From positions 1-64,000 of the forward strand of contig JAFGQN010000119.1 of the NCBI GenBank assembly GCA_016935665.1: DNA of 64,000 nt, in the 5' to 3' direction. Numbering within the stretch: the first letter of the stretch is position 1; each line of letters begins with the position of its first letter. Made by a program: the position numbers and the translations under genes. Below the pieces are notes generated by a model, which worked only from the letters and a program-made list of their open reading frames with translations, did no database searches and was not told the DNA's origin. Below, one piece after another: positions 3,427 to 40,490 of the stretch. The DNA is from Deltaproteobacteria bacterium (lineage in GTDB: Bacteria; Myxococcota_A; Polyangia; JAAYKL01).

Positions 3427-4668
3427 CTACATAGCTGTGCAACTGAGTGCTTCGCGTATCTTTCCTGCGCGCAGATGATCAAGCGCGACTTTCAATCGAC
3501 CGATCTCCTCTGTTTCCCCCTGTGCCCTGAGTTCCTTGATTCGTTCACTCAAGGCGATTTGCAATGCCAGACATTGTTCATCTTCGTTTTGAGCGGATGC
3601 GAGCATTTCCTTGAACACGTCCGCTTTTCTCTTTTTGTCTTCTCTGGAGGTTTCGTCGTCGGCGTCGCTACCCGCGAAGACGTTGTCCAGTGCTGGTTCG
3701 AGGTCTGGTAAACTGGCGTGCAGATCTGCTTCAGTTGGCGCCACCGCTCTTGCGAGGTCGATGGTGATGGGCGTTTCTGTTTGTTGACTCAGTACGATGA
3801 TTTGTTTGATGGCGCCTGTCAAATGATGAATATTATCTTTTATATTTTCTGTCAGGTAATCCAGTACATCGGCGGGAAGCACATCAGGGCCGGCTTTTTT
3901 TTCTGCAATCACGCGCATCTGATCCGGGTCCGGGACCTGCAATTCCGCCGATACTCCGTTGGATAGCAGGGACGACAACTCCTGCACCAGGCCTGGAATC
4001 CGGGATATTTTGCGCGTGGAGCTGATAACCACTGGAATTCCCCGCATCGCTGCGCTTTTTATTATCTGTAAAATGTCTTCCTGGAGTCTTTCCTTCCCTG
4101 CGACGGATTCGAAGTCATCGAGCAAAATGGCTTTGAATTGATAAATCCAGTGGAGCAATTCCACCAGACTGCCCATTTGTTTGGCCCTCGCAAGCTCCAT
4201 CTCCAAATCAAAGACATTTGTATAGAGTGCCGTCTGCGTCATTTCATTGGCAATGGCATTTAACAGGTGTGTTTTCCCCTGACCGGAATTGCCAAAAAGA
4301 AACAGTATATCAAAAAATACCTGAGACTTTCCCTTTACAAGATTTTGTGCCAGTTTGTATGACAATTTATTGATGTCACATCCAACGTAATTTTCAAAAG
4401 TCATTTCCGGATTGGGCGTGTTGGAAAGCAACAGGGGTTTGTAAGCGGTACTTTGCGTCAGGAGCATGAACAGGTGATGCAGCGGTTCTTCTTTGGGGAG
4501 TTGCCGGATTGCTTCGATGGCATAGAGCAGCCCACTTTTTTCGGCGGTAATAATCGTGTTGACCTCTTCATGATGCTGCTTATCAATGACACCGGTTTTA
4601 ACACTTTCATCGAGAAATTGCGCCAGCCTGTCGTATGCGGCAGATCTCTCTTTGAAAATATCGTTCAT
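3427..4668 (-). CDS. DnaA-like AAA+ ATPase without a DNA-binding domain
   Basis: Residues about 90-300 follow the DnaA AAA+ core: FENYVGC lead-in, Walker A GNSGQGKT (126-133), Walker B ILLDD (181-185), a sensor I strand (VVISSTRK) and a lid segment HHLTGAI where DnaA has RELEGAL. The sensor II arginine is therefore replaced. Residues 300-413 are acidic, then helical and charged, with no HTH domain IV. N-terminal residues 1-85 are helical and unrecognised. Like Hda or other DnaA paralogues it probably remodels a protein or is itself controlled by nucleotide state. The start overlaps the upstream DUF4388-roadblock gene by four bases (ATGA), so the two are translationally coupled. A role with the MglA-like GTPase is inferred from the operon only. 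Confidence 0.75.
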   Translation of the reverse strand: MNDIFKERSAAYDRLAQFLDESVKTGVIDKQHHEEVNTIITAEKSGLLYAIEAIRQLPKEEPLHHLFMLLTQSTAYKPLLLSNTPNPEMTFENYVGCDINKLSYKLAQNLVKGKSQVFFDILFLFGNSGQGKTHLLNAIANEMTQTALYTNVFDLEMELARAKQMGSLVELLHWIYQFKAILLDDFESVAGKERLQEDILQIIKSAAMRGIPVVISSTRKISRIPGLVQELSSLLSNGVSAELQVPDPDQMRVIAEKKAGPDVLPADVLDYLTENIKDNIHHLTGAIKQIIVLSQQTETPITIDLARAVAPTEADLHASLPDLEPALDNVFAGSDADDETSREDKKRKADVFKEMLASAQNEDEQCLALQIALSERIKELRAQGETEEIGRLKVALDHLRAGKIREALSCTAM

Positions 4669-5441
4669 TCACTCGCTCCTGAGATGGCGGTACAGATTTT
4701 GGCGGCAGCAATTGAAATCACACCCAAAGAGGAGTCGTCTCCTGCAGCGAGGAATAAAAGATAATTCTCACCCACAGCAGAACCGAGACACGTTCCCAGA
4801 TTATCGGTGAGATAAACCTTTTGCAGTTCCTTTCTGGGGTGAGTGCCAAACACGTTGGCGACTCCGGAAATGATGCGATTATATACCTGCTCATCCACCG
4901 TCTCAGGTGTCCAGATGCAAATCTTTGAACCGTTTTTATGAAAGATGGCGGCGTATTCAATATAAGGAAAATGGGCCACCGCTGCAGATAATATTTCAGT
5001 CATTTGCAAATCTTCCATGGCCGGTGGCGGTTGCGTGACCCGCTCAGCAACGGGAGGTGCGGCCGGTGGATGGTGGTTCATTGCAATTTTCTGTGCTTCC
5101 TCTGCCTGCTTTCTCGCTTCTTCCCTGCGTTCATCCCGTGTTTTCAACGCCAGCATCAACGCACGGTGCAGGTCTATTTCCATCGATGCCTCGTCGCAGG
5201 TGGATCCCAGTCGAAATTCGAATTCGCCTTCTTCCCAGGAAACCAGTTCCACCAGTGCATCCAGACCGGAGTGGTCACCACACACCACATGTTTAAGGCC
5301 GCCCTGGTCGTAAAAAAGCCTGGCCTCGTCATCAAGCCCTGCGATGACAAGTTCACCGGTTTTCTTACCGGTTCCCGGGAACTGTACCAGGTCAACAATA
5401 CCCAGGTCTGATAATGTGCCACTTAGCGCCATGGTGTTCAC
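4665..5441 (-). CDS. DUF4388 (PATAN) plus roadblock/LC7 protein
   Basis: Residues about 5-105 form a DUF4388/PATAN-like domain (start GTLSDLGIVDLVQF, then KKTGELVIAG and FYDQGGLKHV), the same output fold seen in the receivers of this cluster. A Lys/Glu-rich helix and a Pro-rich linker follow. Residues about 145-258 resemble a roadblock/LC7 domain (EILSAAVAHFPYIEYAAIF), the fold that binds MglA-like GTPases. It could bridge the phosphorylated receivers and the GTPase encoded ten bases upstream (5451-6029). Cytoplasmic, with no membrane segment. Domain names are from recognition of typical strand patterns, not a profile search. Confidence 0.7.
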   Translation of the reverse strand: MNTMALSGTLSDLGIVDLVQFPGTGKKTGELVIAGLDDEARLFYDQGGLKHVVCGDHSGLDALVELVSWEEGEFEFRLGSTCDEASMEIDLHRALMLALKTRDERREEARKQAEEAQKIAMNHHPPAAPPVAERVTQPPPAMEDLQMTEILSAAVAHFPYIEYAAIFHKNGSKICIWTPETVDEQVYNRIISGVANVFGTHPRKELQKVYLTDNLGTCLGSAVGENYLLFLAAGDDSSLGVISIAAAKICTAISGASE

Positions 5442-5450
5442 CTTTGTGCT

Positions 5451-6029
5451 TTATATTTCGAACCCTTCGATAATCATTTTGCTAATTGTCCGGATAGTTT
5501 CCATCACACCTTTGCCCTCGGTTGCCACTGCGTTAATGGACGGCACATCCATGGAGATGGCCTGTTCGAGGGATCCCTTTTCTATGGCTCCTTGACAGTC
5601 GCGTTTGTTGTACTGCAAAACAATTGGAAATGCCCTGGGATCAACGCTGTAGGACGCGAGGTTATCAATCATCATTTCATATGCAGAGACATTTCGGTCA
5701 AATCGATGCGGATTCGAATCCGCAACAAAGACGACGCCATCCGCCCCCTCCAGCATCAGTTTTCGACTGGCTTCATAGTATACTTGTCCAGGGATGGTAT
5801 ATAAATTGAATTTTACAGCGTATCCGGAGATGCGCCCCAAATCCAGAGGAAAGAAATCGAAAAAGAGTGTACGCTCTTCCTCCGTATCCAGGGAAACCAT
5901 TTCCCCTCGCAGGTTTTCTGCAAGGCTCCTATGGATTTGCATGAGATTGGTTGTTTTACCACTCATACCTGGTCCGTAGTACACAATCTTAAACGAAATC
6001 TCTTTTTTGTCGTAGCTGATGTATGGCAT
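5451..6029 (-). CDS. mglA: MglA-like small Ras-family GTPase
   Basis: 192 residues, the normal size of MglA. The P-loop GPGMSGKTT is at 19-27, the G3 region reads TIPGQ (78-82) with Thr in place of the usual Asp, which is the MglA signature, and G4 NKRD is at 141-144. In gliding bacteria MglA in its GTP state marks the leading pole and is switched off by roadblock MglB. Here a roadblock protein is encoded immediately upstream (6034-6591) and another just downstream. The surrounding receivers suggest that two-component input controls the switch. The family assignment is firm; whether it governs motility, polarity or something else cannot be told. Confidence 0.9.
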   Translation of the reverse strand: MPYISYDKKEISFKIVYYGPGMSGKTTNLMQIHRSLAENLRGEMVSLDTEEERTLFFDFFPLDLGRISGYAVKFNLYTIPGQVYYEASRKLMLEGADGVVFVADSNPHRFDRNVSAYEMMIDNLASYSVDPRAFPIVLQYNKRDCQGAIEKGSLEQAISMDVPSINAVATEGKGVMETIRTISKMIIEGFEI

Positions 6030-6033
6030 TCAG

Positions 6034-6591
6034 TCATTCCTGCTGTTTGGTTACAAAAATTTGATCAATGAGATTTAATGCGTACTCTTTGAACTCGGGC
6101 GTTGATATCTTTTCGTCTTTACCTGTTGTTTCCCCGATTTTTCCCCGGGCACCGGATGACGACAGACTGCCATTTCTCGAGGTTGAATTCGCTGTACGTT
6201 CTCTTTGCTTTTCACGGTTGGCGATTTCAATGAGTTTGGTGCCGGCTCTTTTCGCCTCAACCCGTACCATTCCAATTCGCCGATAATCCTCAAAAACGAT
6301 TATCATCATCGCATCCTCAGTGACCAGTGAGATATGGATATGTCGCTTTTCTCCCTGTTGCAGGAGGATGGAGAACTGCTGCTCTCCGACCATTTTGGCA
6401 ACTTCCCGCGTTGCAGAGAACATCCCTGCGGTCAGCGCGGCCATGGCTGTGGTGTTGATGGATTGTGTATCACCGGATTCGCTGATTACTGTACCCTGTT
6501 TGGTGATCAGCATGATAGTGATCGGGTTGAGATCACGGCACAAGCTTTCAATGATGGGGTCCACTTCTTTTTTTTTGAAATAGTCTTTCAT
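6034..6591 (-). CDS. mglB: MglB-like roadblock/LC7 protein
   Basis: Residues about 10-110 read as a roadblock/LC7 domain: PITIMLITKQGTVISESG, then a helix with MAALTAGMFSA, then strands HIHISLVTEDAMMIIVF. This is the fold of MglB, the GTPase-activating partner of MglA. A basic and Ser-rich linker (about 125-160) joins a short C-terminal helix. It sits four bases from the GTPase gene downstream, the classic mglB-mglA order. The gene symbol is by analogy: longer C-terminal tail than most MglB proteins, so functional equivalence is inferred. Confidence 0.75.
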   Translation of the reverse strand: MKDYFKKKEVDPIIESLCRDLNPITIMLITKQGTVISESGDTQSINTTAMAALTAGMFSATREVAKMVGEQQFSILLQQGEKRHIHISLVTEDAMMIIVFEDYRRIGMVRVEAKRAGTKLIEIANREKQRERTANSTSRNGSLSSSGARGKIGETTGKDEKISTPEFKEYALNLIDQIFVTKQQE

Positions 6592-6594
6592 TAA

Positions 6595-7380
6595 CTAGCC
6601 CTCTTTATCTGTGGATGGGTGAATTTCCGTATCTGAAAAATGCGGAAAGCCATGTTCCGAAAAGAGCGGAGGTACCTCCGAGTGATGCAGCGTCACCTTC
6701 GAATTTTCATCCTTCAGCCTTGCTGCGTCCATGAGCAGAAAATCTCCTTTGCACTGTATCGTTCGCGCTTGAGGTTCATCGAACGGTAGTGAAACAAATG
6801 AGCCGCCTTTAAACGACAAACACTTATAAAACGCTTCTTCTCCCTGTAATTTACCACATTCTGCATGACACGCTGTTCTATTGTCAATATAGATCAATCC
6901 ATTTTCACCGTCGGTCGAAGTAATATGAAGCTTCAGTTTTCGGTTGGTCAAAAAAACCAGCTGAATGTAGTCAAACAGGGTGATGTCATTTACATTGCCA
7001 CTAAACGAGTTGTTCGCCGCAGATTCGTTGTGCAGCAGATCTATCATCACTTTAGGGTCAAACGGTTTTTCAACATAAAGTATGGGTCCCTTTTTCATGA
7101 GAACCTGCTGAACAGATGAACAACCAAACGCTGTGATGGCAATTATCTTCATGCCTGGACGGTTTTGAATGGTCCACTCGATGAGAGCCAGTCCGTTGAG
7201 CCGAGGCATCTGAATATCGGTGATCATCGCTTCAAAAGTTCTGTCTTTCAGTACTTCAATGGCTTCCGCACCGTCGGGACAACTGACAACTGAATATCCG
7301 GAACGGGTGAGGAATTTTCCGACACCCCAAAGTAAATGGGGATCGTCGTCAACCAGAAGTATTCTGGGTTTGGAACTCAT
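6595..7380 (-). CDS. Response regulator: REC plus DUF4388-like domain
   Basis: The receiver (about 1-120) has DDD at 11-13, acceptor D55 (MITDIQMP) and K105 (YVEKPFD). After it comes a DUF4388/PATAN-type region (NDITLFDYIQLVFL, then KLHITSTDGENGLIYIDN) in which ligand-free strands dominate. The tail after residue 220 is polar. It overlaps the upstream receiver gene by four bases and ends four bases before the roadblock gene. It belongs to the same operon as the GTPase and is a likely carrier of phosphorylation input to it. It is probably a paralogue of the protein at 2413-3294. Confidence 0.85.
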   Translation of the reverse strand: MSSKPRILLVDDDPHLLWGVGKFLTRSGYSVVSCPDGAEAIEVLKDRTFEAMITDIQMPRLNGLALIEWTIQNRPGMKIIAITAFGCSSVQQVLMKKGPILYVEKPFDPKVMIDLLHNESAANNSFSGNVNDITLFDYIQLVFLTNRKLKLHITSTDGENGLIYIDNRTACHAECGKLQGEEAFYKCLSFKGGSFVSLPFDEPQARTIQCKGDFLLMDAARLKDENSKVTLHHSEVPPLFSEHGFPHFSDTEIHPSTDKEG

Positions 7381-8003
7381 TGTCTGGCCTCACTTCTTCT
7401 GCCTCGTTTGATGTTGCCGGCAACGTCCTGTATCAGGTTCACTATTCGCGGGATGTACTCATCGATGAGCGCTTTTATATTGGGTGGCGCGTTTCCTTCC
7501 GCGTCAATTTCCGCTTCGAAAGCCCGGATTGCGCCCAACATTCCGGACAATTGATTCAATGCGAGATGTCGGTCGAAACCGGGTTCGATAGTTGCAGCTG
7601 GAGGCATGGTGGAACGGTAAGGCACCACTTTAATCCCCTGACCGGTGAGAACGCGTTCCACCTGCGCCACGAGCGAAGTGATTGAGAATGGCCGCACGAG
7701 AAACTCTGAAATCTGCCCCGCATCCCGCAAAGCTTCGAAACGCTGTGATGGCCGATTGCCGGTCACAATAATTGAACTCGGTGCAACAATTTCGCACAGT
7801 GCCTGATGAAGCACTATTGGATCTGTTTCGGTCAAATCCGTGTCCAGGATGGTGACATCGGGATTTCGCGCTTTGGCCAGTTCAAGAGTGCTGGTGCCGT
7901 TTGAAGAGACAACGATGTTGGTATCTGCAATAGACCGCTGAATATATCTTGCTTCAACCAGACTTACCATTCGATTGTCTTCAACTAGCAATATAACTGG
8001 CAA
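7377..8003 (-). CDS. Receiver-domain protein with helical C-terminus, first gene of the GTPase operon
   Basis: The receiver has ED at 8-9 and acceptor D54 (TILDTDL). The nearly invariant lysine is replaced by Arg (VRPF, R104), which usually weakens phosphorylation or the output switch. Residues 130-208 form helices (LALNQLSGMLGAIRAFEAEI and following), with a basic tail. They recall an HPt or dimerisation bundle, but I see no phosphorylatable His motif. It is the promoter-proximal gene of the operon down to 3427. A ribosome site is not obvious at the ATG (8003). Confidence 0.75.
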   Translation of the reverse strand: MPVILLVEDNRMVSLVEARYIQRSIADTNIVVSSNGTSTLELAKARNPDVTILDTDLTETDPIVLHQALCEIVAPSSIIVTGNRPSQRFEALRDAGQISEFLVRPFSITSLVAQVERVLTGQGIKVVPYRSTMPPAATIEPGFDRHLALNQLSGMLGAIRAFEAEIDAEGNAPPNIKALIDEYIPRIVNLIQDVAGNIKRGRRSEARQ

Positions 8004-8195: not shown

Positions 8196-8930
8196 TCACC
8201 AGAAAATCAGCACGCCCCCTTCGAGACGCGTATCGGAGGTGTCGGTGTCGGCGTCAATATCGAATCGTGCGGATAGGGTCATATCCAGGTGTCGCCCCAG
8301 GTGAATGCTGAAAAGTGGGACATCGTTGAACGGCGTAACGCGAACGGAGCCAAGGGAGATGCGATGCCTTCCCGCAAAACCGGACCGGGAAAGGTTCGGC
8401 GGGGAGGGGCGATCGACAGCGAGGCGCTGATACGAAATACCAATGCACCATGTGAGATACGGCCCCATATCTACCATGAGCGCACCCGAGCCACGGAGAA
8501 ATCCCGGACTCTTGTTTCTGTTGTACTGGGCATGGGTATAGTCCAGACTGAATAGCGCCAACGCTTCATGGCTGAGTCTTGAACGGGCAGATACGACCAG
8601 TGCCGGTGTGAACAGAAAATGTTGATTTCCAGCGGGCCAGAGATCGGTAATCCCCAATGTAATTGAAACTGCTACAGGTGTGTCGTTTAAAAAGCTGACG
8701 GAGAGCGCAGCTGGAGCGGCTACTTCCAACCATTTTAACAATCCCGCTTTGAAACCGGCGTCGGCAATCCAGGTCCAATCGTGATTCAGTTTGGCCGCAC
8801 CCCCTTCTGCGAACAACTCCATATCACCAGCATCAAGGGTAATGGGCTTCTGGGTATCGGCCATTGTTGCCGAACTGAAAGCCAAAACGAAAATAACAAT
8901 AAGCGAAGAGGTGCACAAATTTAAACACAT
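8196..8930 (-). CDS. Secreted or outer-membrane protein, unrecognised
   Basis: A clear signal peptide (hydrophobic SLIVIFVLAFSS, cleavage near ATMA-DT at about residue 24) precedes about 220 residues rich in alternating hydrophobic and polar strands. Examples are FLFTPALVVSARSR and GPYLTWCIGISYQRLAV, and it ends in an aromatic (LIFW). Alternation plus a terminal Trp is typical of small outer-membrane barrels, so an outer-membrane location is plausible. I do not recognise the family. It stands alone between the signalling operon and a single receiver. Nothing shows its role. Confidence 0.65.
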   Translation of the reverse strand: MCLNLCTSSLIVIFVLAFSSATMADTQKPITLDAGDMELFAEGGAAKLNHDWTWIADAGFKAGLLKWLEVAAPAALSVSFLNDTPVAVSITLGITDLWPAGNQHFLFTPALVVSARSRLSHEALALFSLDYTHAQYNRNKSPGFLRGSGALMVDMGPYLTWCIGISYQRLAVDRPSPPNLSRSGFAGRHRISLGSVRVTPFNDVPLFSIHLGRHLDMTLSARFDIDADTDTSDTRLEGGVLIFW

Positions 8931-11681: not shown

Positions 11682-13517
11682 TCATTCGTCAACAACCGGA
11701 ACCCGTTTTTTTTCAGTCCCAATTTCGTCGGGAAGTGGGATTCTGCGATTCCCGTCGGGAATGGACCTGGAGTCCGTTGTGATGCTCCCTGACGCATTCT
11801 TTTCTACAGGCGCCCCCTGGGGGGAGCTATCGGCGGGGGCACTGTTGGCGGAAAGATCATTGCTGTCGTGCGATGCCGCACTGGATGACATCGTTTTTTT
11901 GGGTAGTGGACGATGAAATCGCTTTTTAAATGACACGGCTGGCCGATTTTTTTTTATGGACCCATCTTCCGTTTCCATTTCAAACTCGGAATTCGAATTC
12001 GATGTTTGCGACTCCGTTTTCACCAATGTCGCTGCGATCATTTTCGTGCCATCTGCGGGGCCGATAAATTGAATGGAGAAATTGCGATATCCCTTTTTGG
12101 AAATCACCAGGTGGTGCTCCTTGTTGGGGGCGACGTGAAATGCCAGACCTTCTGCGTTGATAACGCCCATCTCATCGTTGTCAATGGTGAGCACAGCTCC
12201 GGGGGGATTGCTGGATACAAGCACGTTGTCTCCCAGCGCCAATTCTGCAGTGGTAGTGGGAGAAGGGGTATCTTTGACCGTAACCCAATACAGAATTCCA
12301 GCAACGACTGCAATGAAAAGAAACATTGCAGCGATAATCTTATATACCAGCGCCTGTCCAATGACCACCTGAGATACCTGTGTGCCCTCCGAGGAGGTGG
12401 AGAGCACAGATTGCGCTGTACGCGTGGTACTGGTGCCATTGAATAAGGCTTTTTCTTCTTCAACGATGTGCTGCAACCCAACCTTGCGCGTATCATCAGA
12501 GTCGTGAATCGACGCCATCATCCGCGCTCCAAAAGCGCGTCGTTCATTCAAACGTTCTTCAAATTGGGATGTAAACCATTTTTTAATGTCGCCACCGGAC
12601 ATGGTTTCCACGGCGCATACTTCGTGCAGATCATTGGCAAAATCGTCTATCGTCTGATAGCGTTTGTCCCTGTCTTTTGCGATGGCTTTGAAAACGACAT
12701 CGTCCAGTCCTTTGGGCAGATCCGACTGCAATTCACTGGGAGGAGGCAGTTCCCGCGTTGTAATTTCCTGCACGATTTTTCCAAGATTCACGTTCTTTGC
12801 AAATTTAAAGGCCCTTTTTTGAGTGGCCAGCTCGTACAGACACAGCCCCATCGCATAAACATCAATGCGGTGGTCATGCTCAGACCTGGTAAAAAGTTCG
12901 GGAGCCATGTATCCCGGTGTTCCTTTTATCATGCCCGGCGATGTAAAATCACTTTGAATGCTGGATCTGGCAATACCAAAATCTATCACTTTTAAATAAC
13001 CATTGCTGTTAAGCATGAGGTTGTGCAATCCAATATCTCTATGAATGATAGTGCTTTCGTTGCCTGTTGCTGAAGTTGAGGTGTGCGCGTAGTGGATTGC
13101 ATCGCATGCATCGAGAATGAGTCTGCTGGAAATGCCAAATGGAATCCGCACCTTCTGCTTGTTGCAGTTGGAAAGCACGTATTTTAAAGTTTCACCTTCC
13201 ACATATTCCATAACGATTGAGATCGCGTCTTCTGTTACGCAAAAATCGTACACCTGAACAATATGTGGATGATTCAACGAGGCTGCCAGACGTGCTTCGT
13301 TCATGAACATTTTTATGCTGCTTGAGGATTGTTGCACTCTTTTTTCGTGAGTGCGTTTTACGACTACAAACCGCCCAAAATCCACAGCACCCCGTTGAAA
13401 AGCAAGAAATACATCGCCCATGCCCCCTTCGCCAATTTTGGACAGAAGCTTGTAGCGTTGTTCAATGGCGCCACTCTCAATTTCATGGTTTGGTGTGATA
13501 ATCCTGCTCATTTTCAT
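11682..13517 (-). CDS. Membrane Ser/Thr protein kinase with PEGA domain (copy 1)
   Basis: A eukaryotic-like kinase. Glycine loop GEGGMGDVF, ATP-binding Lys in VVVKR, catalytic loop HRDIGLHN and DFG in VIDFGIA are all visible. The loop lacks the usual KP of HRDxKPxN, having GL, so activity should be checked. The kinase domain covers about the first 320 residues. A single membrane helix follows (IIAAMFLFIAVVAGILYWV), then an extracytoplasmic PEGA-like domain (SSNPPGAVLTIDN, ISKKGYRNF) and a long Ser/Lys/Pro-rich tail. I chose the Met at 13517 by alignment with the paralogue at 15013-16899 and a weak AGGA site. It is divergent from a TPR gene and that paralogue. Confidence 0.9.
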   Translation of the reverse strand: MKMSRIITPNHEIESGAIEQRYKLLSKIGEGGMGDVFLAFQRGAVDFGRFVVVKRTHEKRVQQSSSSIKMFMNEARLAASLNHPHIVQVYDFCVTEDAISIVMEYVEGETLKYVLSNCNKQKVRIPFGISSRLILDACDAIHYAHTSTSATGNESTIIHRDIGLHNLMLNSNGYLKVIDFGIARSSIQSDFTSPGMIKGTPGYMAPELFTRSEHDHRIDVYAMGLCLYELATQKRAFKFAKNVNLGKIVQEITTRELPPPSELQSDLPKGLDDVVFKAIAKDRDKRYQTIDDFANDLHEVCAVETMSGGDIKKWFTSQFEERLNERRAFGARMMASIHDSDDTRKVGLQHIVEEEKALFNGTSTTRTAQSVLSTSSEGTQVSQVVIGQALVYKIIAAMFLFIAVVAGILYWVTVKDTPSPTTTAELALGDNVLVSSNPPGAVLTIDNDEMGVINAEGLAFHVAPNKEHHLVISKKGYRNFSIQFIGPADGTKMIAATLVKTESQTSNSNSEFEMETEDGSIKKNRPAVSFKKRFHRPLPKKTMSSSAASHDSNDLSANSAPADSSPQGAPVEKNASGSITTDSRSIPDGNRRIPLPDEIGTEKKRVPVVDE

Positions 13518-13833
13518 TTTTGCTATCCTGGCGCGCATCTGCCTGTTGTAATCGTGTTCCGCTTCAAATTGACCATTTCTCAAATTAAGTTTTACAATTC
13601 ATTTGCTGATATTGAATTGGTCTACCTGGACACCTCAACGTATGCTGGCATTTAAAATAACACATTTATCTTGGAAAATAACAGTACAAATACTATAAAA
13701 GTTCACTTTTTTAGAAATAGCTAGAACAAAATATTCGCCTGTGCCATTCTAAGGCACTGAAAAGATGGGAACCACGGCTGCGTCAATAAAACGCCGCACG
13801 TCAATTTCAATTTGTTGAACCTGAGGTAAATCA

Positions 13834-14763
13834 ATGAAGAAAAAGATTATATGTTTACTCTCCTTTTATGTGGTAGCAGGCATTCATCTCGCTGGAAATT
13901 CTGTTTTGGCAAATGAAAAAGCCGCACTTTCGGCGCAGGCGCAGGCAGAGTTCGATGATTTGACTCAAAAGGCGGTTGGCAAGTACAGCGCACGCCAGTA
14001 CGAGGAGGCAATCGCACTTTTTGAAAAAGCCTATGCCATCCAGGCGGAGCCCGAGCTTCTTTACAATATAGCCCGTTCTTATGAACGCCTTGCTCGCACC
14101 GACGAAGCCATTGAAGTGTATCAGAAATTTTTGGATACCCCTGGCAGTACCGGTGACTTGAGAGTTCGTGCATTAAACAATCTTGCCGCGCTGCAGGAGG
14201 AACGGGCTGCTCGAGAGAAAATTTCAGGCACTGGCGCCGATAGCGGCGCCGACGGTTCAACAGACGCCGGAGTTGAAGAGAAAATGGAACCCGAGCAGGA
14301 GTCCATGGATGCGACGGACACTAGTCAGATGACTGAATCGGAACCAACACTGATTCTCCAGGACAGAATTTTCAATAGAAAACAAAAGATTCTCAAAACC
14401 CTGGGCTGGACATTTCTGGGAGTGGGAATTGCGGGCATGGGAACAGGTAGTGTTTTTGGTGTGCTCGCTCTAAAATCGAAAAAGAAATACGACGATATGG
14501 ATGGCGACATAAAGAAGTTGGATTATAGGGATGACATGGATAGGAACAGTCTTCTTTTCGACATTATGTTCTTTAGTGGTACCGGCTTTGCAATCGCCGG
14601 CACATCCCTGCTTATTGCCTATGTTGTAAAGAAAAAGCGCCACGCCGCGTCGACTTCTGCATTTCGAATTCGTCAGAATGCCTCAGGGCAAGCCATCAAT
14701 CTAATGCCGTCCTTTTTCGCTGAGAACGGCGTGTGGACCGGTGGTCTGAGCGGTCAGTTTTAA
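13834..14763 (+). CDS. Secreted TPR protein with two C-terminal membrane helices
   Basis: It begins with a signal peptide (IICLLSFYVVAGIHLAGNSVLA). TPR-like helices follow at about 40-125 (KYSARQYEEAIALFEKAY, PELLYNIARSYERLARTDEA), then an acidic linker. Two hydrophobic helices come next (TLGWTFLGVGIAGMGTGSVF and FFSGTGFAIAGTSLLIAYVV), separated by a Lys/Asp-rich loop. The protein at 61983-63047 has the same plan with an added PEGA-like domain, so they are probably paralogues. It is encoded between two kinases with PEGA domains, which suggests an envelope signalling partnership, inferred from position only. The intergenic 13518-13833 is AT-rich and must hold divergent promoters, but I cannot place them. 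Confidence 0.75.
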   Translation: MKKKIICLLSFYVVAGIHLAGNSVLANEKAALSAQAQAEFDDLTQKAVGKYSARQYEEAIALFEKAYAIQAEPELLYNIARSYERLARTDEAIEVYQKFLDTPGSTGDLRVRALNNLAALQEERAAREKISGTGADSGADGSTDAGVEEKMEPEQESMDATDTSQMTESEPTLILQDRIFNRKQKILKTLGWTFLGVGIAGMGTGSVFGVLALKSKKKYDDMDGDIKKLDYRDDMDRNSLLFDIMFFSGTGFAIAGTSLLIAYVVKKKRHAASTSAFRIRQNASGQAINLMPSFFAENGVWTGGLSGQF

Positions 14764-15012
14764 ATCCATTCGTTCGTTCTCACGATTTCCAGGTCATATG
14801 TGTTGTGCGCGTTTGGCGACAAACCGATAAATATTTATTTCAGTATTTTTACATTCCAGTATTATTCTTAAGCCCTTGTGATATATTCGACCGGCACAAC
14901 GATGAAATTGTATCGTTTCATATATGTACGTTTAACCGAGACAAGCATTTTTGATAATTAATTGGGGGGGTTAAGTGAATATCAACGGAATCGAGAGATT
15001 AAAGATTTTGGA

Positions 15013-16899
15013 ATGACACTATCAAAATTTGAATTTCACAACGCAGATATTAATGAGAGATACAGGTTGCTGGCCAAGATTGGCACAGGCGGAATGGGAG
15101 ATGTTTTTTTGGCATCTCAACGGGGGGCAGTCGATTTCAATCGCCTCGTGGTGGTGAAGCGGATTCACAACAGGCATGTCCAGCATACCGAAGAAAACAC
15201 CCGCATGTTTATGAATGAGGCCAGTCTGGTGGCTTCATTGAATCACCCACATATCGTCAAAATTTTCGATTTTTATATGGCTGCCGATTCCGTTTCAATT
15301 GTGATGGAGTATGTGGAAGGTGAAACCCTTAAGTTTATAGGCTCTATTTGCAATCGAAATAAAAGACGCATTCCGTTTGGAATCACTTCTCGACTTATTC
15401 TCGATGCGTGTGATGCGCTGAATTACGCCCATCATTCAACGTCCCCTACCGGCGCCGCACGCACGGTCATCCATCGCGATATTGGGTTGCATAATCTGAT
15501 GCTGGATAGCAACGGCTATTTAAAGGTGATCGATTTTGGAATCGCCAAATCCGATATTCAGCAGGATAAAACAGTGCCCGGTCTCGTGAAAGGTACGCCG
15601 GCGTATATGGCCCCGGATTTGTTTACGAGTGCATCGCCGGATCATCGCATCGACATTTATGCACTGGGGCTGTGTCTCTATGAGTTGGCCACACAGTCGA
15701 GAGCATTCCATTTTTCCAAAAATGCCAGTCTCGCCGAGATTATGAACGAAATCACAACGCGTGAGCTGAAGGCACCATCTCTGATTCAGTCGGATTTGCC
15801 CCCGGGATTCGACGAAGTTCTTTTCAAGGCAATTGAAAAGAATCCCGATAACCGATATCAGACTGTTGAGGCTTTTGCGACCGATTTGAAAATGGTCGCA
15901 GACAGGCAGCTTTATACTGGCGCGGAAGTGAAGGGATGGTTCACCACTCTGTTTGCAAAACGAATTGATGAGCGTCGGAGTTTTGGGGCCCGACTGCTTG
16001 AAAACAGTCGAAACGCCAGACCGGGAATGCCCACATCCACCATGAACGTTCCGGACGCCGGCTTTCAAACCAGTAGTATGTCCCGCGTTACCCAGCAGGA
16101 TATGGCGCCGCAGGTGACCAACGTAACACAGGTGGTGATGGATCGCTCGCATATTTATAAGATTGTCGGGGCTATGTTTCTGTTTATTCTCGCTGCTGTG
16201 ACTGTATTGTACGTTGTTGCGTTCAGGGGGCGGGAGGTTCCGCAGGATGCCAAACAGGCACAGCTGGCGCAGGTGGTTCTTACCGATAACGTCGAAGTGC
16301 ATAGCACTCCTACTGACGCAATCCTTTCCGTTGACGGCAAGGAATTGGGAATGATTGGTGAGGCAGGTTTGGCGTTCAGAGTTGCGCCAAATGTGGAGCA
16401 TAGTCTGGTGATATCCCAAAAAGGATTTCGTGATTTTTCGTTGCGGTTTGCTGGTCCGGTTGACGGTGTGAAGCAGATTTCCGCATCTCTTGTTCCTTTG
16501 GAAGAAGACGACGATGTGGCGGCAGGTGAAACGTCTCACAGGCATAGGCGGAAAAAGCGGAATGACGACAATCTATCGGATGACGCGTCTGATGATTTGG
16601 AGAATCAGGAGCTGGACTCAGAAGAGGTCGAAGTCGAAGCGGATGAGGCTGGCAGCATGGAAAGTGCTCCCGTTCAGCACAGTTCAGGCAGGAAACCCCA
16701 GTCTGTTGGTACCTCGGTGAAACGTGCTTCGAGTGATGCTTCCGGCAATGCTTCTGTGAATAAGAACGCCGCTGGCAATACGGAGAAATCGTCGTCATCC
16801 ACCTCCATCGACGAAGGTTCTGCCTCGGATGGCGGTCGACTTATTCCGTTGCCGGACGATGAGCGTCCGATTCGACGCACGCCGGTAGTTGATGACTGA
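15013..16899 (+). CDS. Membrane Ser/Thr protein kinase with PEGA domain (copy 2)
   Basis: It is a close paralogue of the kinase at 11682-13517 on the other strand, with glycine loop GTGGMGDVF, Lys in VVVKR, HRDIGLHN, and DFG in VIDFGIAK. The kinase region is followed by a membrane helix (IVGAMFLFILAAVTVLYVV), a PEGA-like domain (HSTPTDAILSVDG, ISQKGFRDF) and a Ser/Asp/Glu-rich tail ending in LIPLPDD. Both copies share the odd HRDIGLHN loop. The TTG at 14962 gives a longer form, but the ATG at 15013 matches the paralogue's N-terminus better. The gene follows the TPR protein by about 250 bases. Substrates are unknown. Confidence 0.9.
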   Translation: MTLSKFEFHNADINERYRLLAKIGTGGMGDVFLASQRGAVDFNRLVVVKRIHNRHVQHTEENTRMFMNEASLVASLNHPHIVKIFDFYMAADSVSIVMEYVEGETLKFIGSICNRNKRRIPFGITSRLILDACDALNYAHHSTSPTGAARTVIHRDIGLHNLMLDSNGYLKVIDFGIAKSDIQQDKTVPGLVKGTPAYMAPDLFTSASPDHRIDIYALGLCLYELATQSRAFHFSKNASLAEIMNEITTRELKAPSLIQSDLPPGFDEVLFKAIEKNPDNRYQTVEAFATDLKMVADRQLYTGAEVKGWFTTLFAKRIDERRSFGARLLENSRNARPGMPTSTMNVPDAGFQTSSMSRVTQQDMAPQVTNVTQVVMDRSHIYKIVGAMFLFILAAVTVLYVVAFRGREVPQDAKQAQLAQVVLTDNVEVHSTPTDAILSVDGKELGMIGEAGLAFRVAPNVEHSLVISQKGFRDFSLRFAGPVDGVKQISASLVPLEEDDDVAAGETSHRHRRKKRNDDNLSDDASDDLENQELDSEEVEVEADEAGSMESAPVQHSSGRKPQSVGTSVKRASSDASGNASVNKNAAGNTEKSSSSTSIDEGSASDGGRLIPLPDDERPIRRTPVVDD

Positions 16900-28417: not shown

Positions 28418-30490
28418 TTGGCCGAACAAAGATTCGAATTTCCCGCCTACGGTCGGGTGGATTTGGACGGAACCCACCGCGTTATCATCGAAATAATAGA
28501 AGAAGCGTTTTCCTACCCCAAACAGGATGAGTTATTTTTACATTTGAAATTCAAAAACAGAGAATGTGGCGTTGTGGTGAAGGGAATTCGCGTAGCGGCA
28601 GAACAGAATCGGTTGTTACTTGACCGGTACAAAATGCAGCACCTGAATATCAGAGACGGTGAATCTGTTGAGGCGTTTTTTTTCAGTCCACAAAGCGCTG
28701 AAGAGTTGTCATACTGTGCATCGGCGGACTTTTCCAAACGGGATCAGGTCCGGCTCATTGGAAAACCGTTTACTGCGGGTGAAAAGTCCGCACTGTTTAC
28801 CTTCAGTGGTGAGGCGCGCCCCTATACGGCCGTCACCGCTGCACCGGAAGGAGTTGTGGTGGTATCACCGCGGACTCGACTGTCCGAGGCGCCGGCGGAT
28901 GACGACAACTTACCAGTGACCTACAGTGATATTGGTGGACTTGATGAAGAAATTCGGTTGGTAAGAGAAAGCATTGAATATCCGTTTAAACATCGCGATG
29001 TATTTGCGCATTTGGGGGTAAAACCACCCCGGGGAATTATTTTGCATGGCCCCCCTGGTACCGGAAAAACGTTGATAGCCAAGGCGCTGGCCCACGAGAT
29101 AGGGGCCAATTACTACACCATTAGCGGCCCGGAAATTTACAGCAAATGGTACGGAAACTCCGAACAGCGATTGCGCAACATATTTAACGAAGCAGTGAAA
29201 AATGCGCCTTCAATAGTGGTAATCGACGAAGTCGATTCGCTTGTGCCCAGACGGGACACCATTCACGGGGATCAGGAGCAGCGAATTGTTGCGACATTTT
29301 TAACTCAGATGGATGGGCTAAAGGCGATGAAGGATGTGGTTGTTGTCGGCACCACGAATCGCATCAATGAAATTGATCCAGCGCTTCGGCGCAGCGGTCG
29401 GTTTGAACAGGAAATTTTTGTCGGCGTTCCAGGACATCAGGGGCGATTGCAGATTCTGGGTATACATACCAAACGCATGCCGCTGGCAAAGGATGTGTCG
29501 CTGGAGAAAGTGGCCGAGATGGCGGGGGGATTTACCGGTGCGGACCTGTGCTCTCTTTGCAGGGAAGCGGCATATGTGGCATTGCGGCGTCACATTCCCG
29601 AGGAGGCATTTCAAACCGGAGAATTGGCGGCGCATCGAGAGTTGGTGGTGCAGCACGACGATTTCGTGCGCGCGTTTACCTCGGTGCGTCCCTCCGCATC
29701 CAGAGAATATGCATTGGATGTTCCGCGGACGCAATGGTGTGACATCGGTGGTTTGGCCAGGATTAAAAAGGTACTGGTGGAGAATCTGCAATATGCGGTT
29801 CGCAATCGGGACGCATTTGAGAAAGTGGGTATTCGGGCTGCAGGTGGAATTTTGCTTTATGGTCCTCCCGGAACTGGAAAAACAATGCTTGCCAGAGCAG
29901 TGGCTTGTGAGTGCGACGTGAATTTTATCGGAGTTCGCGCATCAGACATCCGCGATAAGTGGATTGGCGAATCCGAAGATAAAATACGCAATATATTTCA
30001 AAAAGCGCGTTTGCTTGCCCCTTGCGTGATTTTCTTTGATGAAATTGATTCCATTCTCATGTCGCGCGGACGAGATGTGTCTGGCGTGGGGGATGCCATT
30101 GTAAATCAGATTCTGAGCGAGATGGATGGGTTGGAGGATTTTGGGGACATCTTTATCATGGGGGCCACAAATCGCATCGGCGCCATTGATCCGGCGGTCT
30201 TGCGTCCGGGGCGATTTGACTATCTTCTGGAGGTGCCACTCCCGGACCTTTTGGGGCGAAAGGAAATATTCGAGGTTCATCTAAGGGAAAAACCGATTGA
30301 AGATGTCGACCTTGATTTTCTGGCCCTGCACACCGACGGGTTTTCCGGCGCAGCTATTGCTGAAGTATGCCGGGAGGCGGCATGGGAAGCGCTGAGGGAA
30401 GCAAACTACTGCGCCGAAACGGTGACTGTTTCCATGACCCATTTGAAAAATGGAATTGCCCATCTCAATCCTGTACGAGGTGATGTGTGA
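28418..30490 (+). CDS. CDC48/p97 (VCP)-like tandem AAA+ ATPase
   Basis: It starts at a TTG with AGGGAGG six bases upstream. Residues 1-165 form an N-terminal substrate or cofactor domain unlike the canonical one. Two AAA+ modules follow: D1 with Walker A GPPGTGKT near residue 210 and Walker B VVIDEVD, D2 with a second GPPGTGKT near 482 and Walker B IFFDEID. Second-region-of-homology ends RRSGRFE and LRPGRFD carry the arginine fingers. Such ATPases thread or segregate proteins as hexamers; they are widespread in archaea and eukaryotes and patchy in bacteria. Its stop overlaps the start of the GrpE-like membrane gene by four bases, so the two are coupled. Confidence 0.92.
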   Translation: MAEQRFEFPAYGRVDLDGTHRVIIEIIEEAFSYPKQDELFLHLKFKNRECGVVVKGIRVAAEQNRLLLDRYKMQHLNIRDGESVEAFFFSPQSAEELSYCASADFSKRDQVRLIGKPFTAGEKSALFTFSGEARPYTAVTAAPEGVVVVSPRTRLSEAPADDDNLPVTYSDIGGLDEEIRLVRESIEYPFKHRDVFAHLGVKPPRGIILHGPPGTGKTLIAKALAHEIGANYYTISGPEIYSKWYGNSEQRLRNIFNEAVKNAPSIVVIDEVDSLVPRRDTIHGDQEQRIVATFLTQMDGLKAMKDVVVVGTTNRINEIDPALRRSGRFEQEIFVGVPGHQGRLQILGIHTKRMPLAKDVSLEKVAEMAGGFTGADLCSLCREAAYVALRRHIPEEAFQTGELAAHRELVVQHDDFVRAFTSVRPSASREYALDVPRTQWCDIGGLARIKKVLVENLQYAVRNRDAFEKVGIRAAGGILLYGPPGTGKTMLARAVACECDVNFIGVRASDIRDKWIGESEDKIRNIFQKARLLAPCVIFFDEIDSILMSRGRDVSGVGDAIVNQILSEMDGLEDFGDIFIMGATNRIGAIDPAVLRPGRFDYLLEVPLPDLLGRKEIFEVHLREKPIEDVDLDFLALHTDGFSGAAIAEVCREAAWEALREANYCAETVTVSMTHLKNGIAHLNPVRGDV

Positions 30491-32046
30491 AAATTGTCGT
30501 TACTCTACTTTGTTTGTTCTGCATCTGCTTCGGTTCGGGAGGGGGGGCCGCGAAGGCGACGGACGCGGAGAACGATGGCGGTGAGACGTCTGTCGCTAAA
30601 AAGGGGCAACGCTCATCCTCTGCTCCAAATAAATCATCGGAGAAAAAAGAACCATCGCATCTGGAAGCGGGTATTCGGATGTTGCTGGTTTTTCCGGAGC
30701 CTCCCGCAAAGATGCCATTCTCTGAGGCGGAGCTGAATCTGTTTCGCAGCAGCCTTGGAAAGAGTGATCAACTGGGAATTGTTGTGACGAACAGAAAACT
30801 GCAATTACTGTCGATGACTCCGAAGGACCAGATGACGGTATCCAGCGCCGGTATTTTATCTGAATTAAAATTGGCGACAGTGGCGGACAAGGAAAAGAAT
30901 GCCGCTGCGAATGTTAAAAAGAAGCCACTGGATTTGGATGAAACGATACGCAGCGCTGTTGCACAGATGAGCGATTTGCAGGGGTTGCTCAAAGCGGTGG
31001 TGCTTGTTCCCGACAGAGACATTGACCTTTCCCGTGATATAAAAGAAGACACTCCGCTTCAGCCCGAAAACGGAACCGATTCCGGTTTTGATGACAATGA
31101 AAGTACTGAACTCTCCACGTTAAGTTCGTTGTTGGCATTGAACAATGTCATTTTGTACACTGTTTTTCCCGAGACAGTTCATAGTCCTCTGCTGGAAAAG
31201 CTGACTACTCAAAGCGGAGGAAAAAATCTGTTTCTGTCAAATCGCGTTTCTTTGAATGATGCATTATATACGGCATATGATTCCATATTGCTGCGCACCA
31301 TTCAGTTGGCACCCCAAACGGCATTGTATGACAGTGATTCAATCTGCACCCCCGCACTGGATGACACGGCGAAGATCGGAGCCACAGATGAACAACCACC
31401 AGCAGTCGCCGCCAGCAGTGACCTTGTGGTGGGAATGTTGTTTATTGGTCTGGTGCTTAGCGCAGCATTGCTGGTTCTATTGATTTTGATTTGGCGGCAA
31501 AGAGGAACGACCGCATCCCCTGCGGGAACGCCGGAAAGAAAGAATGAAACGTCCGAAGAAAAGGGGGCACCGTCTTTTTCGAAATTGACAATTGGCATTA
31601 ACCGGGTTCGCAACAGCTTTTCGGATATGGAATCCCGCCTGCATGCGCTATCGGTGGATTTGGATGAGTTCGGAAGCGACAACTGGGAAATGCAAAAGAA
31701 AATAGTGTCGGCGTATGCGGAAATTTCAAAAGAGCTGTTCCTTTTATATGACCATGTTTCCCTGGATGACGAATCGGAGCGTAGCGAGGCATCACAGCGA
31801 ATGATGCGGAAGATTGCGCAGGCGCTGGAGAATAACGGCATTGAGAAAATTGTCCCCTCTGCAGGTGAGCGGTTTCACAGCAAGTATCACAGCCACGCAG
31901 GCGAACGCCAAAGTGATCAGAAGGCGGGTACTATTCTGGAAGTGGTGCGCGATGGATATCAGCGGCAGGGATTTGTCAGTGATGAGCCGTTTGTATTGCG
32001 GCAGGCGGAAGTGATTGTTAGCACTGGAACAGACGCTGACAAATAA
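30487..32046 (+). CDS. Membrane protein with vWA-like region and GrpE-like C-terminus
   Basis: It starts at a GTG inside the ATPase stop. A signal or anchor helix (VVTLLCLFCICFGSG) precedes about 290 residues that look like a degenerate vWA fold, seen in GIRMLLVFPEPP, KAVVLVPDRDI, NNVILYTVFPE and LLEKLTTQSGGKN; the metal-binding DxSxS is absent. A membrane helix (LVVGMLFIGLVLSAALLVLLI) leads into the cytosol. There a coiled helix and the final 150 residues resemble GrpE: helices with AYAEISKELFLLYDHV, and strands GIEKIVPSAGERFHSKYH, KAGTILEVVRDGYQ and FVLRQAEVIVSTG. GrpE is the nucleotide exchange factor of DnaK, and an Hsp70 gene follows. A membrane-tied GrpE is very unusual. Confidence 0.7.
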   Translation: MKIVVTLLCLFCICFGSGGGAAKATDAENDGGETSVAKKGQRSSSAPNKSSEKKEPSHLEAGIRMLLVFPEPPAKMPFSEAELNLFRSSLGKSDQLGIVVTNRKLQLLSMTPKDQMTVSSAGILSELKLATVADKEKNAAANVKKKPLDLDETIRSAVAQMSDLQGLLKAVVLVPDRDIDLSRDIKEDTPLQPENGTDSGFDDNESTELSTLSSLLALNNVILYTVFPETVHSPLLEKLTTQSGGKNLFLSNRVSLNDALYTAYDSILLRTIQLAPQTALYDSDSICTPALDDTAKIGATDEQPPAVAASSDLVVGMLFIGLVLSAALLVLLILIWRQRGTTASPAGTPERKNETSEEKGAPSFSKLTIGINRVRNSFSDMESRLHALSVDLDEFGSDNWEMQKKIVSAYAEISKELFLLYDHVSLDDESERSEASQRMMRKIAQALENNGIEKIVPSAGERFHSKYHSHAGERQSDQKAGTILEVVRDGYQRQGFVSDEPFVLRQAEVIVSTGTDADK

Positions 32047-32139
32047 CCGGATGCCAGTTGGCAACGTTGCTATGTAACGTTATGCCGAAGAGACAGATGA
32101 CAGCAATTGAATAAATCATTCAATTTATGGAGTGATAAA

Positions 32140-34119
32140 ATGAGCAAAGCAATCGGAATAGATTTGGGAACCTATAACTCAGCAGCAGCGGTACCTGTGG
32201 GAAACGGCAAAGTGGCCATGGTGGAGAGTCGCTATGGTCGCAGTCTGTATGGGAAAAATTTTGCTTCATTTGTACTGTTCGATCATTTTGGTCAAAAACA
32301 GGTAACCGGAAAACGGGCACAGGCAGAAATGCGACTGAATCCCCGTCTTGTCGTCTGGGGCGTCAAACGACTGGTTGGATTGTCGTATCAGAATGCAAAG
32401 GCCAGCGGTGAGTTGGCGCGTTTTGCGTATGAAACCGAGGAAGGTCCTGGGGGCAGCATACTTATCAAAGTGGGACAGGAGCGGTATACGCCATCGCATA
32501 TTCTCGAGTACATACTGAGGGACATCAAGCAGGATGCCGAAGATCCTTCCGTGAATCCGCTGGTGGGACAAACCATCGACAAAGCCATTATCAGTATTCC
32601 CGCGTATTTTAAAGCCATTCGCACCAATCCAATAATTGAGGCCGCGCGAAACGCGGGATTCGAAGAGGTGGATACCATTGCCGAACCGACCGCTGCGGCC
32701 ATTGACTACTGCATGAAAATCGAGAGGGAAGCGAACCTGCTGGCGTTCGACATCGGCGCCGGGACGCTGGATGTGACGGTAATGATGGTGGTCAACGAGG
32801 ATGGTCATTTGATTCCAGGGGAACTATGTACATCTGGTCACGAGGCATTAGGGGGATTGGATATGGATGATGCACTCATGCGTCATATTGTCTCTAAATA
32901 TGATTTGCACGGTGTCCTGCAGGATGCCACTCATAAATCCATTCTGGCCGAGGAGATTGAACGGGCCAAAATTCGGTTGTCTCAAAAAAACAGCGCCACC
33001 ATCGATTTGCCCGGGGATCAAACGGTGACCATGACGCAGGGGGAATTGGAGGAAGTGCTTTCACCATTGCTGGACAAATGTCGAAAGCCCATTGGTATTG
33101 CGCTGCGTCAGGCGGGGTTGCGTGCAGCGGATCTGGACAAGGTTCTTTTCATTGGAGGCCCTTCCAATATGCCATGTATCCGGAAAGTGGTGGCTCAGGA
33201 GTTGGCCGCATTGGATGCCAGAGGCGATGTAATCGCTGATATCGATGACTATAATCTGAATGGTCTGCCGGTTGACCCAATGGAATGTGTGGCGCGAGGG
33301 GCGTCACTGAAAGCGGGGAGCGTTATCGAGCCAGTTGGAAAAGTGATTTCCGAAGGATATGGCACCGTTTTTGGCCCCGTTGAAGATGCACCCGACTATT
33401 ATGAGCCCATCATCCGTGAAAACTCCCATTATCCCATCTCGGGCAGCACCGTTTCAACGCATCAGAATCCCGATTCGCTGGAAGTCCCCATTTCGCTGGT
33501 TGCCAAAAGACCCGACGCTGAGAAATCCACTGCGGAACGAACCGTATTTAAATACGAATACCTGGGAAATTATTCGCTGGGTATTACGCCCCAGCGGGGA
33601 TTGCCGGCCATTGAAATTCGCTTGCGTGTAACGGACGATAAGCGGGTTGTTGCCACCCTGATTCACACGCAGACGCGGCAACAGGTAAAGTATGAAAGTC
33701 TGGATATGCTGAGTGGTTTTGAAGTGGTGCTTCAGGAACATACTCCGCCCAAAATGCTGGCACAGCAGGATATGGATTTGCTCAATGCAACGGTGATTGG
33801 AAAAAAGAGCGGATGGACCAAAGAGCATTTGGAAAAACATATGCACGTGGCCAGGGAAGCGCTGGCGCTGTGTGGAGATTGTCAGGACGACAAAGTTGTT
33901 TCGGCGATGGAAAAAGTGGAAGAGGCCATTTCGCGTGCCGTGGACCGCAAAATGGACAGTCCCAATGAGGACTGTCCAGCGATTTCCAACCGGACCAAGG
34001 AATTGCTCGACACATTGCTGCAGCCCGGAGTGAAACAAATATCGGTGGAGGAGTTTCGTCGCTATCTTGAACAGCTGATACATATCGCGCAGATGGTTGC
34101 CTATGATCAGGCGGACTGA
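32140..34119 (+). CDS. Divergent Hsp70 (DnaK-like) chaperone
   Basis: It starts at ATG 32140 with GGAG seven bases upstream; a frame from 32107 adds a non-homologous lead. Hsp70 ATPase motifs are clear: IGIDLGTYNSAAAV (phosphate 1), IISIPAYFK, IAEPTAAAIDY, FDIGAGTLDVTV (phosphate 2) and a FIGGPSNMP adenosine motif. The second half keeps a substrate-domain-like stretch (YSLGITPQRGLPAIEIRL) but differs strongly from DnaK, and lacks the EEVD-like end. 659 residues. Partners are probably the GrpE-like protein upstream and the J-like protein downstream. Confidence 0.9.
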   Translation: MSKAIGIDLGTYNSAAAVPVGNGKVAMVESRYGRSLYGKNFASFVLFDHFGQKQVTGKRAQAEMRLNPRLVVWGVKRLVGLSYQNAKASGELARFAYETEEGPGGSILIKVGQERYTPSHILEYILRDIKQDAEDPSVNPLVGQTIDKAIISIPAYFKAIRTNPIIEAARNAGFEEVDTIAEPTAAAIDYCMKIEREANLLAFDIGAGTLDVTVMMVVNEDGHLIPGELCTSGHEALGGLDMDDALMRHIVSKYDLHGVLQDATHKSILAEEIERAKIRLSQKNSATIDLPGDQTVTMTQGELEEVLSPLLDKCRKPIGIALRQAGLRAADLDKVLFIGGPSNMPCIRKVVAQELAALDARGDVIADIDDYNLNGLPVDPMECVARGASLKAGSVIEPVGKVISEGYGTVFGPVEDAPDYYEPIIRENSHYPISGSTVSTHQNPDSLEVPISLVAKRPDAEKSTAERTVFKYEYLGNYSLGITPQRGLPAIEIRLRVTDDKRVVATLIHTQTRQQVKYESLDMLSGFEVVLQEHTPPKMLAQQDMDLLNATVIGKKSGWTKEHLEKHMHVAREALALCGDCQDDKVVSAMEKVEEAISRAVDRKMDSPNEDCPAISNRTKELLDTLLQPGVKQISVEEFRRYLEQLIHIAQMVAYDQAD

Positions 34120-34792: not shown

Positions 34793-34928
34793 AATCAACG
34801 GGACAGTAAAATCAAAGGGACGGTGTTTCTTTTTTTCTTTTGATATTTCAATACAATCCGGGACAATTTTCCGATTGTTCTTTTCCAATTGTTTGCACCA
34901 TGCCGGTATTTGGTTTAAAATTCTATTT

Positions 34929-40382: not shown

Positions 40383-40490
40383 ACAGGACACCTCTTTCAA
40401 ATGGCACCACTCATTCAATGTCGTCTCTTCCTGAATGCATTTCAACAAAAAAACTGCGCAGTGAAATGACAGGATTTTTAAAAATCTCAT

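Follow-up and report, generated by a model that had tools for sequence, protein, structure and literature searches.

An MglA-family GTPase operon with a DnaA-derived AAA+ protein in a Myxococcota draft genome and its relatives

A six-gene block and its occurrence

A 64,000-nucleotide stretch (the window; positions 1 to 64,000 of contig JAFGQN010000119.1) from a Myxococcota draft genome of 8.16 Mb (G000) was analyzed. On its minus strand, from position 8003 to 3427, lay six co-directional genes encoding two receiver proteins, an MglB-type roadblock protein, an MglA-type small GTPase, a second roadblock protein, and DnaAL, an AAA+ protein derived from domain III of DnaA. The second receiver protein and the second roadblock protein also carry DUF4388, which, from general knowledge of the InterPro entry, we take to be the PATAN domain. 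We consider it somewhat probable that the operon encodes a self-standing signalling module of the MglA family, passed on mainly by vertical descent and a paralog of the canonical MglA/MglB polarity switch, with a repurposed DnaA AAA+ core as its fixed sixth subunit and with the mechanism proposed below. In our judgment, the chances are even that a DnaA-derived AAA+ protein has left replication and now serves a bacterial Ras-like GTPase switch as its obligate effector or adaptor, which might be the first time that a DnaA core is used in this way.

Neighboring genes overlapped or were at most 9 bases apart, the junctions measuring −4, +3, +4, +9 and −4 bases in the 5′ to 3′ direction of the operon. 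The two 4-base overlaps joined the first receiver gene to the receiver-DUF4388 gene and the PATAN-roadblock gene to the DnaAL gene (the latter at ATGA), and the first gene started with TTG, with GGAGG ahead of the start. A preliminary description of this DNA had reported six genes with every junction overlapping or within ten bases, and the coordinates bore this out; the domain set that it listed (receivers, DUF4388, MglA/MglB, two roadblock proteins, and a DnaA-like AAA+ protein) was recovered by Pfam, NCBIfam, and PDB matches, and by predicted fold for the second roadblock. Scans for promoters and terminators gave results no better than chance.

Profile searches were performed on 318 genomes of the window's class, mostly drafts or metagenome-assembled genomes, with cut-offs set at clear score gaps. 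The DnaAL profile found genuine DnaA in nearly all genomes, and matches reaching into the C-terminal tail of DnaAL in nine genomes plus one partial match that was complete on reading; these ten were G000, G001, G002, G004, G028, G071, G074, G193, G203, and G238. The ten best matches of the PATAN-roadblock profile fell in the same genomes (E < 1e-84, with paralogs next at 1e-61), and the module MglA profile returned the identical ten (E < 1e-80, all about 1e-100 or better; canonical MglA copies about 1e-75). In 10 of 10 genomes, receiver-DUF4388, MglB, MglA, PATAN-roadblock, and DnaAL genes stood together in one locus.

The module also occurred in an 11th genome, G415, which belongs to another class. 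There it was split between a contig that begins with DnaAL and one that ends with the receiver, receiver-DUF4388, MglB, and MglA genes, followed by the opening half of the PATAN-roadblock gene; the break fell within a low-complexity coiled-coil stretch found at both contig ends. DnaAL, the PATAN-roadblock protein, and module MglA thus went together in 11 of 11 cases, and receiver-DUF4388 orthologs occurred in all 11 loci. Co-occurrence gave a Fisher p of 4e-19, a statistic that ignores shared ancestry. Because the arrangement recurs in 11 genomes, it is not a product of chance. The PATAN-roadblock and DnaAL genes overlapped in most loci and remained joined even in G203, where the order deviates (MglB-MglA-REC-REC/DUF4388-adaptor-DnaAL). 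The preliminary description had called for a survey of relatives for DnaA-like genes near mglA; the linkage held throughout, and the DnaA-like ATPase was a fixed member of the compact phospho-signalling and Ras-like GTPase module that had been proposed.

A wider contig profile scan yielded two true DnaAL orthologs among the matches listed, followed by DnaA of other phyla, and a plasmid search with MglA gave one Deinococcus match only. The module MglA tree grouped by family where it was resolved, a pattern that fits vertical inheritance of the module with many losses.

Domain make-up and residues of DnaAL

Both the Pfam match to Bac_DnaA (Table 1) and the fold placed a DnaA-type AAA+ domain III in DnaAL. 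With an AlphaFold2 (AF2) model (AF2 models were built on 10-11 sequences), the best Foldseek matches were DnaA domain III (8bv3/2z4r; TM(target) 0.88, 26-28% identity). Neither DnaA_N (domain I) nor Bac_DnaA_C (domain IV, with its helix-turn-helix, HTH) was found by Pfam in the window DnaAL and nine orthologs, and the resident DnaA of the window genome, as a positive control, scored on both. In a tree of AAA+ cores, the 11 DnaAL were set apart from 18 DnaA of the same phylum, Bacteroidota, and Acidobacteriota by a branch with 100/100 support; DnaAL therefore does not stem from a recent duplication of the resident DnaA. Judged by its missing domains I and IV and its own clade, DnaAL is not DnaA. 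The NCBIfam Hda model (TIGR03420) scored 91.2 bits on DnaAL against a cut-off of 194.8.

Walker A (GxxGxGKTH) and the Walker B aspartates (DD) were invariant, so nucleotide binding is probably retained. The roles of the box VII arginine finger and the sensor-II Arg are established for DnaA. Box VII (RLxSRL) was kept in most of the distant orthologs but read ELSSLL, with Leu for its Arg, in the window DnaAL, and the finger was also lost in three related loci (L032, L033, and L155). The sensor-II Arg was kept in most of the distant orthologs and replaced by His in the window DnaAL and L032. Because both arginines are gone, classical AAA+ work by DnaAL of the window lineage is unlikely. Its sequence suggests a switch or adaptor that binds ATP and not a canonical AAA+ motor or replication initiator, and the "ATPase as output" of the preliminary description, itself an inference, is not supported in that form. 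Basic residues of the DnaA helices that bind single-stranded DNA were mostly not conserved.

The best-conserved part of DnaAL was its C-terminal tail (about 344-411, four predicted helices). Identity in the tail was 74% within the genus and 40% in comparisons with distant orthologs, whereas the AAA+ part reached 53% and 29%; dS was saturated in DnaAL comparisons. Pfam found no nameable domain in the tail of the window protein and nine orthologs, matches to DUF1090 being weak and below the cut-off. The N-terminal helices of DnaAL had been likened by eye to MshEN/GspE_N of pilus ATPases; Pfam searches of nine orthologs did not bear this out even with E allowed up to 1, and the idea was dropped.

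The GTPase, its partners, and neighboring genes

Module MglA is a member of the MglA family. Its orthologs were 57-86% identical to the window protein in the alignment and all carried R53, T78 (Gly to Thr), and Q82, with only conservative changes in the P-loop GPGxSGKTT. The window genome has four MglA-family genes, and one of them, on another contig (G000:C21) with mglB upstream, was nearly identical to MglA of Myxococcus xanthus. In the tree, module MglA formed its own clade, separate from canonical MglA (support 95/98), and was not orthologous to canonical MglA of the same genomes. By these sequence relationships, the module is a second, paralogous MglA/MglB system beside the canonical pair; the earlier label of a "polarity-type GTPase" goes too far. 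The NCBIfam MglB model matched module MglB at 1.8e-15, below the model cut-off, and the alignment revealed a conserved C-terminal helix, FKEYALNLIDQIF, after a variable linker. On these features, module MglB belongs to the MglB family and is a predicted roadblock GTPase-activating protein (GAP).

The receiver-DUF4388 protein kept the acidic pair, the phospho-acceptor Asp, and the Lys. In the first receiver, the phospho-acceptor Asp was kept in all orthologs, and the receiver Lys was Arg in the genus. Its C-terminal region showed H146, N150, L152, and R160 invariant in seven orthologs (H146-x3-N150-x-L152) and is possibly a phosphotransfer (DHp-like) hairpin resembling the H-box of histidine kinases; this part matched no Pfam family, and HisKA was absent at E up to 5.

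DUF4388 scored above the gathering score, always above 25 bits, in all three proteins listed with it in Table 1. The C-terminal half of the PATAN-roadblock protein was missed by Pfam; its AF2 model (pLDDT 81) had the order alpha-beta-beta-alpha-beta-beta-beta-alpha, and its Foldseek matches were almost all roadblock proteins, including M. xanthus MglB (6izw). The roadblock fold of this half was thus recognized from the model and the structure search, and not from a sequence profile comparison with MglB.

PATAN-roadblock paralogs were also seen at G000:C169:6173-6853 (L174) and G000:C126:45430-46122 (L173), neither with MglA or DnaAL alongside, and a DUF4388-roadblock paralog on G076:C148 likewise had no adjoining MglA or DnaAL. 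Neighbors of the C169 paralog are a small roadblock-like protein and a member of a 153-aa family (MKRAVDSRAVQGVLYGVYKAL...); relatives of this family occur close to the module in G203 and, in G028, downstream of DnaAL, the latter matching nothing in Pfam.

A gap of 132 bases separated DnaAL from a second receiver-DUF4388 gene, followed by a hybrid histidine kinase gene, and the order of the two was identical in both congeners (L032 and L033). Synteny of the receiver-DUF4388 gene extended to L035, and a homolog was also found downstream of the module in G004; the kinase was syntenic in the genus only. In the genus of the window, the operon probably continues with these two genes, and there the kinase is the likely phosphoryl input to the module.

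Table 1. Genes of the operon and its continuation in the window
Product	Coordinates	Strand	Evidence
Receiver protein, 208 aa: REC and C-terminal helical region	7377..8003	-	Pfam Response_reg 1.5e-8
Receiver-DUF4388 (PATAN) protein, 261 aa	6595..7380	-	Pfam Response_reg 1.3e-22, DUF4388 2.5e-11; receiver residues intact
MglB-type roadblock protein, 185 aa	6034..6591	-	Robl_LC7 2e-9; M. xanthus MglB structures 1.4e-19
MglA-type small GTPase, 192 aa	5451..6029	-	PDB MglA 3e-60
DUF4388 (PATAN)-roadblock protein, 258 aa	4665..5441	-	DUF4388 2.5e-13; roadblock C-half predicted from AF2/Foldseek
DnaAL, DnaA-domain-III-derived AAA+ protein, 413 aa	3427..4668	-	Bac_DnaA 1.2e-18
Second receiver-DUF4388 protein, 293 aa	2413..3294	-	Response_reg 5e-23, DUF4388 3e-6
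Hybrid histidine kinase-receiver, 420 aa	1051..2313	-	HisKA, HATPase_c, Response_reg

Upstream of the operon, positions 8196-8930 encode a probable exported protein of 244 aa without a Pfam family, kept in the nearest congener (L032:3898-4626). Elsewhere in the window, a gene for a TPR-like protein (13834-14763) lies between the genes of two Ser/Thr kinases (11682-13583 and 14962-16899); the kinases are close relatives, both with a transmembrane segment and with similar C-terminal domains. By eye, a CDC48/VAT-like double AAA+ protein, a membrane protein, a DnaK-like protein, and a TPR protein stand in a row as a possible chaperone cluster (28418-34792). A REP-associated tyrosine transposase-like protein (RAYT type) was likewise recognized by eye at 34761-35936. 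Positions 36596-38014, 39753-40490, and 47030-48490 encode probable lipoproteins whose long repeat linkers are rich in Asp, Ser, Thr, and Gly (SDTDGDSD-type).

Proposed mechanism and known systems

The composition and order of the operon, its overlapping genes, their exact co-occurrence, and the loss of the DNA-binding parts of DnaA are directly visible in the sequences. We propose that the receivers, fed in the genus by the downstream kinase, would set the nucleotide state of module MglA through the roadblock regulators of the module, MglB acting as a GAP or guanine nucleotide exchange factor. The PATAN-roadblock protein may be an adaptor, reading MglA or MglB on one side and holding DnaAL on the other, with the conserved DnaAL tail as the likely contact. 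DnaAL would then serve as an ATP-dependent conformational switch or oligomerizing effector where MglA-GTP accumulates; in the window lineage, it would probably bind ATP without canonical inter-subunit hydrolysis. By analogy, the type IV pilus machinery is a plausible candidate target and the first to consider: pilus-type ATPases were found in all 11 module genomes (PilB-type and PilT-type genes adjoin in G000:C88), and in cyanobacteria PilB is a target of PATAN-type regulators (PMC7690835).

Several points weigh against this proposal. The link between PATAN and pili is taken over from cyanobacteria, and no motility gene adjoined the operon. With only 10 of 318 genomes carrying it, the module is not a general requirement for pilus function. 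Most of the genomes are drafts or metagenome-assembled, and sequence alone cannot place DnaAL downstream rather than upstream of MglA.

Four other explanations were weighed. DnaAL could be an Hda-like replication regulator that touches DnaA through AAA+ surfaces and ties replication initiation to the GTPase and two-component signal. Its fold and sequence are nearest to DnaA domain III and next to Hda, which likewise has no domain IV, and most of the distant orthologs keep the RLxSRL box and sensor-II Arg needed for AAA+-AAA+ contact; but both arginines are lost in the window protein and L032, DnaAL was found only together with the MglA module, no replication gene lay near the module, and the Hda score is far under its cut-off (91 vs. 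195 bits), which leaves this explanation unlikely. Somewhat less likely again is a nucleoid or membrane anchor that, by residual DNA binding or ParA-like positioning, would place the GTPase module in the cell. Bacterial polarity systems often have ATP-driven positioning partners, which speaks for an anchor, as do ParA/MinD-type ATPases near the module in G203 (L152:752-1558) and G193 (L154:10989-11804), but these were the only 2 of the 11 loci at which ParA was noticed, and DnaAL has no HTH domain and few of the basic residues of the DnaA helices.

It is also improbable, a little more so than an anchor, that the operon governs gene expression or development instead of polarity or pili and that DnaAL regulates a transcription factor in the manner of a chaperone. 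Receivers lacking a DNA-binding output point to a switch that works by protein contacts, and MglA-family modules can work outside motility, as in Actinobacterial conservons (PMC4316618); however, no sigma factor or transcription regulator was a conserved neighbor at the loci. That DnaAL is a passenger held by operon linkage, with no GTPase partner, is highly improbable: it is the fastest evolving operon gene (61% identity to the nearest relative vs. 86% for MglA), but none of the 11 modules, which span two classes and several families, is without it. Its gene invariably comes straight after the PATAN-roadblock gene, in most cases with an overlap, and the protein has invariant Walker motifs and a tail under strong conservation.

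The constant pairing of a Ras-like switch with an ATPase built from the DnaA core, minus its DNA-binding part, suggests that this replication protein has been reused for signalling. Ras-like control in bacteria is known chiefly from MglA/MglB switches, for which few effectors have been described. A GTPase, an adaptor, and a DnaA-core ATPase inherited as a block would offer a compact system in which to test how a Ras-like switch drives an AAA+ protein, and in which the DnaA core is seen evolving outside replication, including in lineages without the catalytic arginines.

The preliminary description had called a DnaA-like protein in such a locus surprising. This holds for the DnaA-derived subunit, for which no earlier description was found: searches of open-access full texts for MglA or roadblock proteins linked to DnaA turned up nothing relevant, and the text of PMC4316618 mentions no DnaA-like component. 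It does not hold for the DUF4388 link, as PATAN genes near mglA/mglB homologs have been reported (Wuichet and Sogaard-Andersen 2014, PMC4316618, citing Makarova et al. 2006). To those loci, which share PATAN with it, the module adds a fixed arrangement and the extra ATPase.

With MglA/MglB/RomR of M. xanthus, the module shares an MglA-type GTPase (R53, T78, Q82), an MglB-type roadblock protein, receivers, and a second roadblock protein (cf. the co-GAP RomY); it differs in the separate clade of its MglA, the canonical pair lying elsewhere (G000:C21), the presence of PATAN and a DnaA-derived AAA+ protein in the operon, and the lack of a recognized RomR-type gene. DnaAL has the DnaA-type AAA+ core and Walker motifs of DnaA (domain III) and Hda, but differs from them in its missing DnaA_N and Bac_DnaA_C, extra helical tail, own clade, lineage-specific loss of catalytic Arg, and Hda score below the cut-off. 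The cyanobacterial PATAN response regulators PixE, PixG, and LsiR show the same combination of PATAN and receiver, whereas the module couples it to a Ras-like GTPase and a DnaA-core ATPase, with pili as a candidate target. Actinobacterial conservons (CvnA-D) likewise bring a histidine kinase, a roadblock protein, and an MglA-family GTPase together in one operon; the module, in which no CvnC was recognized, differs by its receivers, PATAN domains, and AAA+ protein.

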